Positions 27,065-31,215 of a stretch of DNA of 64,000 bases are shown here, piece by piece. Origin of the DNA: Phycisphaerae bacterium (GTDB taxonomy: Bacteria; Planctomycetota; Phycisphaerae; UBA1845; UTPLA1); contig JAKLKO010000001.1 of NCBI GenBank assembly GCA_023150615.1, positions 186,001 through 250,000 on the forward strand, given 5' to 3'. The translations under genes were made by a program, and so were the position numbers. The notes under the pieces are model-generated. The model saw only the letters and a program-made list of their open reading frames with translations, made no database searches and had not been told where the DNA came from. How positions within the stretch are numbered: the stretch's first letter is position 1; the number at the start of each line of letters is the position of its first letter.

Positions 27065-28903
27065 TCACGCAACGGACGGGGCCGCTGATGATTCGACGCG
27101 CGGTCCCGTCCGAACGAGCGCGACAAGTTTGTCGCCAGGCTTCGGATCCGACGCCGCGTCCGCTGTCACGACCGTCAGGCGCCGGGATTCCCGGACGATG
27201 AACAGGGGGATGGCCTGCGTTCCGTAGTGCTGACAGTACTCCGCGTAGCCGAACGTCTCGGACAGCGGCGTCGCCTTGATGATCGCGCCTTCGGAGATCC
27301 GCGCCGCGAGCTCGGCGTACGTTGCACCGGAATCGAACAGCGGCCGGCCCTGCAAGTGAGGATCGAACCGCCCCGTGGATCGATCGGACCCCGCCGGCAC
27401 GAGCTGGAAGACTGCGGCCCGTCCGAACAATCGAGCAAACCGCTGAATCGCGAGCACATTCACCTCGTTGTTGGGCGTCAGCGCGAGCAGCCGCCCCAAT
27501 CCGCCAAGCGGAATCTCATCCTCGATCGTATCGCTCAGGATGCTGCCCAGATGCGTAGACAGTCCGTCCAGCCGCGCGGTAGCAATCGCGTCCGGATTAT
27601 TGTCGCAGATCATCACGCGAAACCCCTGCTCACTCAGGGCGCGCCCGATCATCCGGCCGAACGCGTGCGCGCCGACAATTAGCAGTCCCTGCGGATCGGA
27701 CTCGGCCAATCCAAGACGCCGCGCGATCGGTCCGGCCAGCAGGCCATAGACGGTCACCGTGACGACAATGGTGAGAAAGGTCAGTGGGGCGAGAACCCGC
27801 GCTTCGGGAAAACCGGCGTGCTCCAGGTCGATCGCCATTACCGACGCCACCGACGCCGCCACGATGCCGCGCGGCGCCATGCTCATCAGGAAGACGCGCT
27901 CCGCGCGTGTCAGCCGCGATCCCATCGTCGAGATCGCGACGCTCAGAGGCCGTGCCGCGATCAGCGCGAGCACGAATGCGAGCCCCGCACCACCGACGTC
28001 CCGGAAGTCCGACAATCGCAGCCGCGCGCTAAGGACGATGAACAGCGCCGAGATCAGCAGCGTTCGCAAGTTCTCCTTGAATTCGACGATGTGCCGGATG
28101 TCGACCCGGCGCTGATTCGCCAACACGATCCCCATCACCGTCGCGGCGAACAGGCCGGCCTCGGGCTGGATCGCATTCCCGCAGACGTACGCCCCCGCGG
28201 CCAGCATGAGCGTCACCGGGTTGTGCAGCGCATCGGGAAGCCAGTAGCGTCGAATCGCGACCATCAGCAGCCCGGACGCCAGCGCGCCGATTCCGCCGCC
28301 CAGCACGACTGCGCTGGCGACCGCCGACAAGACGTGCGATGGTGCAACTCGAAACGCGCTACCCGAAACCGCCTCGAACACGATGACGGTCAGCAACACG
28401 CCGATCGGGTCGATGACAATCCCCTCCCATTTCAGGATCGCCGCGGTCGCCCCGACGGGTCGGATGTGCCGCAGCAACGGCTGAATGACCGTGGGGCCCG
28501 TCACGACGAGGATTGCGCCGAGCAGCACCGCGAGTCGCGCCTCCAGCCCGACGATCCAGTACGCCGCCGAGCTGGCGACGACCCAGGTCGTCGCGACACC
28601 GAGCGTGACGAGTCGTATCACCACACTCCCGGCGCCACGCAATTCGTCGAATCGAAGGCTCAAGCCACCCTCGAGCAGCACAAACGCCACGGACAGTCCG
28701 ACGAACGGAAGCAACACGGAGCCGAACAAGCCGTCCGGATCGAGCAGCCCGGTCAGCGGCCCCGCGACGAATCCGGCCAGCAGGAGCAGCAGGATCGACG
28801 GCAATCGGACGCGCCATGCGACCCATTGCGAAGTCGCTCCGACGATGAAGATCAGCGCAAGTCCGACGGCGGGCGGCGCTGGCTCGAACAAGGGAAGTGT
28901 CAT
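27065..28903 (-). CDS. CPA-family cation/proton antiporter with TrkA-N domain
   Basis: 612 residues: a membrane part of about 12 hydrophobic segments (1-390), with LSVAFVLLEGGLSLRF and VVTGPTVIQPLL near the ion site. A cytoplasmic NAD-binding (TrkA-N/RCK) domain begins at LIVGAHAFGRMIGRAL (about 400-415). This is the arrangement of KefB/CPA2-type and of some CPA1-type Na+(K+)/H+ antiporters, where the RCK domain gates transport. The WEGIVIDPIG segment is typical of the NhaP/CPA1 side, so I would not fix the ion. Divergent from the top6A gene. Confidence 0.87.
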   Translation of the reverse strand: MTLPLFEPAPPAVGLALIFIVGATSQWVAWRVRLPSILLLLLAGFVAGPLTGLLDPDGLFGSVLLPFVGLSVAFVLLEGGLSLRFDELRGAGSVVIRLVTLGVATTWVVASSAAYWIVGLEARLAVLLGAILVVTGPTVIQPLLRHIRPVGATAAILKWEGIVIDPIGVLLTVIVFEAVSGSAFRVAPSHVLSAVASAVVLGGGIGALASGLLMVAIRRYWLPDALHNPVTLMLAAGAYVCGNAIQPEAGLFAATVMGIVLANQRRVDIRHIVEFKENLRTLLISALFIVLSARLRLSDFRDVGGAGLAFVLALIAARPLSVAISTMGSRLTRAERVFLMSMAPRGIVAASVASVMAIDLEHAGFPEARVLAPLTFLTIVVTVTVYGLLAGPIARRLGLAESDPQGLLIVGAHAFGRMIGRALSEQGFRVMICDNNPDAIATARLDGLSTHLGSILSDTIEDEIPLGGLGRLLALTPNNEVNVLAIQRFARLFGRAAVFQLVPAGSDRSTGRFDPHLQGRPLFDSGATYAELAARISEGAIIKATPLSETFGYAEYCQHYGTQAIPLFIVRESRRLTVVTADAASDPKPGDKLVALVRTGPRVESSAAPSVA

Positions 28904-29039
28904 CGACGATCTCGCGCGCCTCGAGTTGATTCACCGTCCCGGCGGGCGGTTCGCACCTGCCTGCCCGGCATCGTATGCACAATCGCCCCGCAGGACGACC
29001 ACTCCGGTTATCATGCGCCGCAGCCGAAAGGAGTCGAAC

Positions 29040-30155
29040 GTGCCGCGAACCGCCCGAAGCTCAACGCGTCCCGCCGTCGCCGGAAAGATCGAAAAGCTCG
29101 TCAGTGAGATCGTCGAACGCGCAGGCAAGCGCAAGGAGCCGGCGCTTGATGTCCCGATGCGGACCCTCTCCAACGCCCGCTACAACAAGGTCAAGCGGAT
29201 CATCGAGATGGGCCGCGCCACGCAGAACCGCGAGTTCTTCAAGCTCGGCACGGCCAAGAGCTTCATGCAGACGCTGCTCGTCGCATCGGGCTGCAAGCGC
29301 CTGATCGACGAAGGCAAGACCGCCAGCATCCGGCAGGTCTACTACCTGTTGAAGCACTCCATCCCCGGCACGCGCGAGAAGACGTTCAACGATCAGAGCG
29401 AGAGCGACCCGATTCTTGAAGACCTCGAGGTGACGATCGACGCCCTGCGGGAGGAGTTGCACGTCTTCGCGGACAGCAAGGGCGCGATGGTCGGCGAGAT
29501 CATCCTCACCGACGCCGGCGACACGATCGACTGCACGCGACTCGGCACCGGCGGCTACGCCATCCCGAGCATCGTCGAACCCGAGATCATCCGCTTCAAG
29601 AAGTGCAACGCGAAGTTCGTGCTGCACGTTGAAAAGGGCACCGTCTGGCGTCGCTTCGTCGAGGACCGGTTCTGGAAGTCCCACCGCTGCATCGTGACGC
29701 ACGGCGGCGGGCAACCCCCGCGCGGCGTGCGCCGCCTGCTCTATCGCCTGCATCACGAGCTGAACCTGCCGGTCTACGTGCTGCTCGACAACGATCCGTG
29801 GGGGTACTACATCTACAGCGTCATCAAGCAGGGCTCGATCAACCTCGCCTTCGAGAGCCGGCGGATGGCCGTGCCCGATGCGAAGTTCATCGGCGTGCGC
29901 AGCGGCGACTTCGAAAAGTTCCATCTGTCCGACGATGTCAAGATCGCCATCGACGACAAGGACATCAAGCGCGCCAAACAGATCCTCGCCTACCCGTGGT
30001 TCGAGGGGAAAAAGGAGTGGAAGAAGGAGATCGACCTCATGCTGCGCCACGGCTTCAAGATGGAGGTCGAGTCGATGATGACCAAGAGCATCAGCTTCGT
30101 CACCGAGTCCTACGTCCCGCACAAGCTCAAGCACCGCGACGAATGGCTGGATTGA
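29040..30155 (+). CDS. DNA topoisomerase VI subunit A homologue (Spo11/Top6A family)
   Basis: The DNA-cleaving subunit of a type IIB topoisomerase. The 371-residue protein has the CAP domain with SIRQVYYLLKHS (catalytic Tyr101 or Tyr102). The Toprim domain has Glu198 in HVEKG, the acidic pair Asp250 and Asp252 in LLDNDPWG, and the intervening GQPPRGVRRLLYRL. The GTG start at 29040 is supported by AAAGGAG six bases upstream; TATCAT (29009-29014) would be a -10. All catalytic positions are present, so it should be active. Subunit B (the GHKL ATPase that normally precedes A) is not next to it or elsewhere in the window. Planctomycete copies are sometimes labelled topoisomerase IV subunit A. Confidence 0.9.
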   Translation: MPRTARSSTRPAVAGKIEKLVSEIVERAGKRKEPALDVPMRTLSNARYNKVKRIIEMGRATQNREFFKLGTAKSFMQTLLVASGCKRLIDEGKTASIRQVYYLLKHSIPGTREKTFNDQSESDPILEDLEVTIDALREELHVFADSKGAMVGEIILTDAGDTIDCTRLGTGGYAIPSIVEPEIIRFKKCNAKFVLHVEKGTVWRRFVEDRFWKSHRCIVTHGGGQPPRGVRRLLYRLHHELNLPVYVLLDNDPWGYYIYSVIKQGSINLAFESRRMAVPDAKFIGVRSGDFEKFHLSDDVKIAIDDKDIKRAKQILAYPWFEGKKEWKKEIDLMLRHGFKMEVESMMTKSISFVTESYVPHKLKHRDEWLD

Positions 30156-30201: not shown

Positions 30202-31215
30202 TCACGACCGAGCATCGTCCGCCGTTCGCCGCCGTTCGATCGACTTCCCGATGAACAGCCCGGACTCGAACAACAGCGCCATCGGCACGACCAGCAGCAG
30301 CATGCTGCCCACGTCCGGTGACGGCGTCACGACCGCTGCGACGACCGCCAGCCCCAGCAGCACATGCCGGCGCGCCGACGCCAGCATGGCCGCCGACACG
30401 ATTCCCGCAGCGATCAGGAACACGACCACGACCGGAATCTGAAAGCCCAGCCCGAACGCCAGCGCCATCCCCGTCACGAAGGACAGGTACTCCGAGATCG
30501 TGAAGAACGGCTGCACGAACTGCTGCCGGTCCGACGGCGTCAACCGCGTCGTGTACCGCCGCCCTTCGATCACCACGTTGAGCGTTCCGTCGGAGCTGCG
30601 GACCCACGCATCGCCGCTCTTCGGCGCAGGCGGATCGGTCGCCAGCACCGGCAATCGCAGCGGCGGCGCGGCCGGCGCGGTCGCGGTGGCCGCGGGCGGC
30701 GGCGCGAGCCAGCGGGTCAGTGCGTTGCCGTCCGGACCGGGCAGCGGAAACCAGGTCGACATCCCGATCAGGAACTTCAGCAGTCCGAAGAGCACCACGA
30801 TGACGAGAAAGCCCGCCCCGGCGAGGAACAGTCCGATCGACGCCGGCGCGAAGTACTGGAACACCCGCCGCTCGTTCGGATAGAGCCCGACGGCCACGAA
30901 CGTCCAGACCTGGTAAAGCACCCACGGCGCGGACAGCACGAGCCCGAACTCGAGCGAGACCTTGAAGTACTCGAGGAACGCCTCGGTCGGATTGACCTGG
31001 AGCATCCGCGGCTCGAAACCCTCCTGGGTCATGGCCGCGTAGTATGGCGCGGTCAGCCACTCGATGATCCGGTCGCCGAAATAGAAACAGAGCACCGTCG
31101 AAACGACCACGCCGACAAGCGCACGGATGACGCATGCGCGCAACTCTTCGAGGTGCTCGCCAAACGACATGCGGACTTCGTCAGGAGAGGCAGGTAATCC
31201 GGTTGGACGCGGCAT
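30202..31215 (-). CDS. tatC: Sec-independent translocase TatC, with periplasmic insertion
   Basis: The core receptor of the twin-arginine translocation pathway, which exports folded proteins. The 337-residue protein has the conserved N-terminus MSFGEHLEELR (16-26) that binds the twin-Arg signal, the FSPTEAF-type segment VNPTEAFLEYFKVSL and six membrane segments. It is about 85 residues longer than E. coli TatC because of an insertion at roughly 152-235, in the loop before the fourth segment. That insertion has an Ala/Pro-rich linker and then a beta-like stretch (DAWVRSSDGTLNVVIEGRR, split as DAWVRSSDG and NVVIEGRR). TatA/B genes are not in the window. Confidence 0.93.
   Translation of the reverse strand: MPRPTGLPASPDEVRMSFGEHLEELRACVIRALVGVVVSTVLCFYFGDRIIEWLTAPYYAAMTQEGFEPRMLQVNPTEAFLEYFKVSLEFGLVLSAPWVLYQVWTFVAVGLYPNERRVFQYFAPASIGLFLAGAGFLVIVVLFGLLKFLIGMSTWFPLPGPDGNALTRWLAPPPAATATAPAAPPLRLPVLATDPPAPKSGDAWVRSSDGTLNVVIEGRRYTTRLTPSDRQQFVQPFFTISEYLSFVTGMALAFGLGFQIPVVVVFLIAAGIVSAAMLASARRHVLLGLAVVAAVVTPSPDVGSMLLLVVPMALLFESGLFIGKSIERRRTADDARS

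Follow-up and report, generated by a model that had tools for sequence, protein, structure and literature searches.

A gene in the 64,000-nucleotide stretch of Phycisphaerae DNA analyzed here (the window) very probably encodes the DNA-cleaving subunit of a complete, split, and mosaic DNA topoisomerase VI (Topo VI), whose other subunit, Top6B, is encoded elsewhere in the genome, on a different contig. Sequence comparisons further indicate that Top6A is likely to be an exchangeable part. Two ancient lineages of this subunit appear to have been swapped several times, in DPANN and in bacteria, beside a constant B ATPase core and with a matching B tail each time. The window enzyme would be one product of this exchange, later split.

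A preliminary description of the gene had recognized a Top6A with its catalytic residues kept, a strong ribosome binding site, and unrelated neighbors in divergent or convergent orientation (Table 1). Sequence and domain searches bear out this local picture. The predicted protein matches three Pfam models (TOP6A-Spo11_Toprim, 1e-58; TP6A_N, 4.3e-16; Topo_VI_alpha, 1.7e-7) and scores 538.7 bits against the NCBIfam equivalog NF003333 (cut-off 465). Its best solved relative is the A subunit of Saccharolobus shibatae Topo VI (PDB 2zbk_A; 3.5e-76, 259.9 bits in a PDB sequence search), which has the same domains and catalytic residues; identity to a solved structure is ∼40%. In an alignment with Methanosarcina mazei Top6A, Tyr102, Glu198, Asp250, Asp252, and Glu342 fall opposite its catalytic tyrosine and acidic residues, as numbered in the available text of PMC13040014 (which prints E254 where the sequence has D). 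All five are invariant in an alignment of eight sequences and in 67/67 planctomycete Top6A proteins. These searches and alignments confirm the gene as a genuine Top6A with intact catalytic residues. A JetD/MksG nuclease of a Wadjet system was considered and rejected: The match to the JetD model is weak and confined to the TOPRIM domain (8e-7, 26.4 bits), and the flanking genes encode an antiporter and TatC. The TatC frame (337 aa) has two Pfam-matched stretches and a proline/alanine-rich insert.

Table 1. Genes, domains, and residues discussed in the text (positions without a prefix are those of the window)
Feature	Position	Strand	Basis or remark
Na+/H+ antiporter gene	27065..28903	−	divergent from top6A
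Shine-Dalgarno AAAGGAG, 6 bases 5′ of the top6A GTG	29027..29033	+	read from sequence
top6A, DNA topoisomerase VI subunit A, 371 aa	29040..30155	+	GTG start at 29040
TP6A_N winged-helix cleavage domain, aa 73-142 of Top6A	29256..29465	+	Pfam
Catalytic Tyr102 codon of Top6A	29343..29345	+	sequence and alignments
TOPRIM domain, aa 193-363 of Top6A	29616..30128	+	Pfam
Glu198 codon, TOPRIM acidic residue of Top6A	29631..29633	+	sequence and alignments
DxD motif Asp250-Asn251-Asp252 of Top6A	29787..29795	+	sequence and alignments
Glu342 codon, fourth acidic residue of Top6A	30063..30065	+	sequence and alignments
top6A stop codon	30153..30155	+
TatC gene	30202..31215	−	convergent with top6A
top6B, 671 aa, GTG start	G000 C6:10774-12789	−	outside the window, other contig
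Two TPR-repeat genes	L088:10260-13244	+	divergent from top6B
Second, divergent Top6A-like protein, family f60	L335:5383-6285	−	in a genome with a normal Top6A
Second, divergent Top6A-like protein, family f60	L337:5455-6816	−	in a genome with a normal Top6A
Second, divergent Top6A-like protein, family f60	L338:5645-6712	−	in a genome with a normal Top6A
gyrB ≤15 kb from top6B, top6A elsewhere	f8 genomes, e.g. G031, G040, G046, G049, G091, G093, G097

No Top6B gene lies within 8 kb of the window top6A, and the gene had been described as an orphan that might act in the manner of Spo11 without an ATPase subunit or might use a distant partner. It is the distant partner that the genome supplies. The assembly (4.10 Mb, 70 contigs, 99.6% complete) contains a single Top6A, on a 504-kb contig (C11, which includes the window), and a single full Top6B, on a contig of 86 kb. 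Top6B carries the Pfam domains HATPase_c and Topo-VIb_trans, exceeds the cut-offs of two NCBIfam Topo VI B equivalogs, and has M. mazei B as its best solved relative (PDB 2q2e_B, 3.6e-158). Its Asn134 and Lys543 align with M. mazei Asn48 and Lys435, given as ATP-contacting in the portion of PMC13040014 available. The H2TH region has no separate Pfam match, and residues 91–450 align with M. mazei B residues 5–365 without a large break, a span that includes the M. mazei H2TH domain (residues 235–311, according to the same portion of PMC13040014).

The separation of the two genes is not a product of contig ends, because more than 200 kb of contig lies on either side of the window top6A and because three genomes of the window family (f1) have both genes far apart on one contig, separated by 0.62, 1.33, and 4.61 Mb (on a circular contig, the last distance would be ∼0.86 Mb in the opposite direction). 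Contamination by the Top6B contig is also unlikely, since this B groups with those of family members in trees. Judged from the genome sequence, the window gene is half of a normal, split Topo VI and not an orphan.

The two subunits occur together throughout the order. Among 101 genomes (the window genome and 100 others of its order), Top6A is found in 91 and Top6B in 96; 88 have both, three only A, eight only B, and two neither, and nearly all genomes with a single subunit are incomplete. Each subunit is present in 62 of the 63 good genomes. The preliminary description had reasoned that a Top6B elsewhere in the genome with a matched phylogeny would mark a normal, merely split enzyme. Inside the family and the order the phylogenies do match (Mantel r = 0.846 for 17 genomes and 0.733 for 47 genomes, with 0/2000 permutations reaching either value); at depth the A and B trees conflict, as detailed below.

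A Top6A that worked alone, making programmed double-strand breaks without Top6B, would fit the missing neighbor gene, and Spo11 is homologous to the Top6A cleavage subunit. Unlike Spo11, however, the window protein has a canonical Top6B in its genome, the two genes co-occur across the order, and the catalytic residues are kept in every planctomycete Top6A read, as for a full topoisomerase. On genome content we reject both the orphan and the Spo11-like reading, the latter being highly improbable. If the split Topo VI works as its family does, two A and two B subunits would form an A2B2 heterotetramer, in which ATP would close the B gate and the transducer stalk and C-terminal hairpin of B would act on the A winged-helix domain. 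The DNA would then be cut by Tyr102, and a second duplex would be passed through.

The distance between top6A and top6B varies with the family. With genomes having both genes as denominators, and with most different-contig cases giving no distance, the two are no more than 6 kb apart in 0/17 genomes of f1, 3/3 of f2, 9/10 of f5, 1/1 of f6, 21/34 of f8, and 1/23 of f4. In f1, the two TPR-repeat genes beside top6B recur in 13/16 other genomes, and the neighbors of top6A hardly ever recur (tatC in 1/16). Family f8 includes 22 genomes in which gyrB is found no more than 15 kb from top6B; seven genomes have B near gyrB with A elsewhere, and one has the reverse. The nearness of gyrB to top6B even where A is elsewhere suggests an ancestral neighborhood of gyrB with top6B-top6A. 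In archaea, genes for gyrase and Topo VI are known to lie near each other, according to the text available of PMC9348778. Because the neighbors of top6B are kept while those of top6A change, and because of the gyrB pattern in f8, A is the part that tends to move. One f4 genome (G029; loci L127 and L128) has a Top6A that is closer to those of other families (68.7% identical to that of the window, compared with 51%–56% in the other f4 genomes read), and a recent transfer of A within the order is possible by this measure. The placement of its Top6B differs between trees.

Top6A proteins of the phylum fall into two types. The subunit is present in 133/294 genomes of the phylum sample, and the 67 proteins read (that of the window and 66 others) comprise 58 of type 1 and nine of type 2. 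Identity to the window protein is 51%–74% for the other 57 type-1 proteins and 32%–36% for type 2. Among three solved archaeal A subunits, type 1 is nearest to that of S. shibatae (mean 41%); type 2 closely resembles the Methanocaldococcus jannaschii protein (mean 57%). The mean identity between the types is 34.4% for A and 50.8% for the B subunits of the same genomes, the latter value resting on the five of nine type-2 genomes for which B was available. Outside the bacteria, the window A is matched in 209/236 genomes of one DPANN phylum, in which both A types occur, with bands of 40%–58% and 34%–37% identity among the matches listed, and in 34/36 Methanococci genomes, one of these by a short weak piece only; all full-length Methanococci matches are in the low band.

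The two halves of the window enzyme point to different relatives. S. shibatae, which provides the closest solved A, has a B that is distant from the partner B (297 bits vs. 531 bits for M. mazei B), and M. mazei, whose Topo VI (PDB 2q2e, 9o8p, and others) provides the closest solved B, has an A that is more distant from that of the window (172 bits). The window A is of the Saccharolobus/DPANN-like type, and its B nests among bacterial B subunits that are partnered with a Methanococcus-like A. The mosaic would then arise by replacement of one subunit against the other.

Main trees of A and B were built from 85 rows chosen by hand and hold no eukaryotic sequences. The planctomycete rows represent 32/61 genomes having both genes, plus L232, L234, and the L236/L254 genome; the other type-2 rows represent 27/80 loci. 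DPANN type 1 is represented by 18 of 20 fetched rows, L307 and L323 being dropped because of a long insert in the B frame, and the 20 were mostly the best-scoring of ∼90 type-1 matches listed. Smaller comparisons used every type-2 row available (nine for A and five for B).

The A tree splits cleanly by type, with a single change, and the B tree requires at least six changes of A type. In the B tree, all bacterial rows form one clade (support 99) that holds both A types; within it, the 27 type-1 planctomycetes form a clade (support 98), and DPANN rows of the two types are interleaved. AU tests reject holding all type-1 rows together in the B tree (p-AU 0.007), uniting the planctomycete type-1 B's with those of four DPANN rows near them in the A tree (p-AU 0.016), and holding all bacteria together in the A tree (p-AU 1.4e-79). 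The groups compared were named after the first trees had been inspected, a choice that strict use of the test would not permit. With the tail removed, a careful B-core tree (48/85 rows) again unites the bacteria (100/97) and has eight changes of A type. It contains three DPANN mixtures of type-1 (D1) and type-2 (D2) rows: D1_L322 with D2_L201 (100/100), D1_L324 with two D2 rows (100/99), and D1_L316 and L320 with D2_L188 (100/97). Here the type-1 planctomycetes do not form a single clade; nine group together (99/95), and G156 and G221, which are deep, do not resolve.

The trees and AU tests reject the inheritance of the A and B types as two intact packages. Together they suggest that the A and B halves are of different ancestry and that A was exchanged several times in evolution. 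Alternatively, there may have been no exchange at all, the conflict being an artifact produced by long branches, by sparse sampling of archaea, or by hidden paralogy. Long archaeal branches are indeed flagged in the deep trees, where archaeal references are few, and the AU groups were chosen post hoc, with one p-value as high as 0.016. We consider this explanation unlikely: The strongest mixtures are of closely related B-core rows on short branches whose A subunits nevertheless differ in type, and in those DPANN rows A and B adjoin on the same contig. Furthermore, among five genomes with two Top6A matches that were inspected, none carries both A types as an intermediate. Two of these (G154 and G116) have two type-2 copies or pieces each, and in the other three (G176, G241, and G271) the second match is a divergent TOPRIM protein.

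Three genomes of planctomycete family f60 that have a normal Top6A carry a second, divergent Top6A-like protein (Table 1). These proteins keep the four acidic TOPRIM residues and have no TP6A_N match; at the position of the catalytic tyrosine, one has Y and two have R. In the stretches read, none has an adjoining Top6B gene. They are better candidates for true orphans than is the window gene. Searches of viral contigs found no Topo VI matches; among plasmids, three haloarchaeal records match A, and five records match B.

The C-terminal tail of B, by which it docks on A, tracks A type in the DPANN rows tested, even though the cores are intermixed. Beyond its stalk, B has a C-terminal helical hairpin to which the A winged-helix domain binds (PMC13040014, in the part available), and the stretch of B after the transducer stalk, starting near M. 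mazei B residue 471–485 by alignment, exists in two forms. When profile models of the tail are trained on bacterial sequences alone, they assign 36/36 DPANN tails to their own A type, the weakest (L319) by only 0.7 bits. In four DPANN rows, the B core is 64% identical to that of type-2 B's, but the tail only 26%; between the type-2 B's of DPANN and bacteria, the tail is 46% and the core 57% identical. The four tails are no closer to type 1 (26% and 25%) than to type 2 (26%). Because they are equally far from both, they fit co-transfer and re-adaptation alike. The matching tail may have come along through recombination that reached into the top6B 3′ end, which lies just upstream of top6A, or it may have re-evolved to fit.

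C-terminal extensions of archaeal Top6B have been linked to gyrase (Villain et al. 2022, PMC9348778, in the text available). Gyrase is present in 9/18 type-1 and 17/18 type-2 DPANN genomes, and it does not explain the form of the tail, since in gyrase-bearing rows the tail still matches the A type in 9/9 and 17/17 cases, respectively. The type-1 DPANN rows without gyrase are those with basal B cores. Four DPANN Top6B frames (L189, L224, L307, and L323) are ∼1070–1150 codons in length with long inserts that may be inteins. Likewise, the GyrA matches of five DPANN genomes (G541, G670, G671, G672, and G676) are broken near model position 80–93, several in frames of ∼1150–1600 codons, where inteins are likely.

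The complement of type II topoisomerases bears on probable function. The GyrA/ParC family is present in 99/101 genomes of the order and the GyrB/ParE family in 94/101, each as a single gene (the extra rows in G048 and G100 and in G060 and G094, respectively, are fragments). Partial rows aside, no second gene of either family was found among the 101 genomes, and a GyrA box is present in the GyrA of the window genome and in eight others read. This single gyrase gene pair with its GyrA box indicates that Topo IV is missing. Apart from gyrase, only Topo VI was found among type II topoisomerases. The organism therefore has gyrase without Topo IV, from which Topo VI is most likely its chromosome decatenase.

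The absence of Topo IV is no proof of decatenation by Topo VI, because some bacteria have gyrase alone; Helicobacter pylori and mycobacteria, for example, are named in titles or abstracts as lacking Topo IV. Gyrase might do both jobs, leaving Topo VI for a special task such as relaxation of positive supercoils or repair. Such a division of labor seems doubtful given that Topo VI is retained almost universally in the order, alongside gyrase and in the absence of Topo IV, and given that the M. mazei enzyme is a preferential decatenase (PMC8837201, in the part available). A decatenase role for Topo VI is also argued by Allen and Maxwell (2024; PMC11302465, text available in part) for Planctomycetota with gyrase and Topo VI and without Topo IV.

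That Planctomycetota have Topo VI and lack Topo IV is thus already known. The enzymes of Pirellula, Thermogutta, Lacipirellula, Anaerohalosphaera, and Sedimentisphaera likewise accompany gyrase without Topo IV in that account, which, in the portion available, notes that bacterial A subunits, like bacterial B subunits, form two clusters, treats a misplaced Bdellovibrio B as anomalous, and reports that the immunoglobulin-like C-terminal domain of M. mazei B is absent from bacterial B's (PMC11302465). Its available text makes no mention of split loci, A/B exchange, or a correlation with the tail. The related type IIB enzymes Topo VIII and Mini-A are described as being for the most part homodimers, with genes on mobile elements (PMC8185306, in the part available); in the window genome, A and B have separate genes, both on large contigs, and exceed the cut-offs of Topo VI equivalogs. 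No report of Topo VI subunit exchange was found among the titles and abstract openings of the open-licence PMC literature or in the available portions of PMC11302465, PMC9348778, and PMC8185306. What is apparently new is the proposal that, beside one Top6B lineage, two ancient Top6A types (∼34% identical) took each other's place repeatedly.

The meiotic Spo11 machinery has no closer relative than Topo VI, and the control of A cleavage by the Topo VI ATPase subunit is an open question. If A is indeed exchanged in nature between very distant lineages with only the B hairpin following, then the coupling of A to B would be modular and the hairpin would be a specificity element. The order-wide combination of gyrase and Topo VI without Topo IV also makes these planctomycetes a natural system for studying the role of Topo VI in bacteria.
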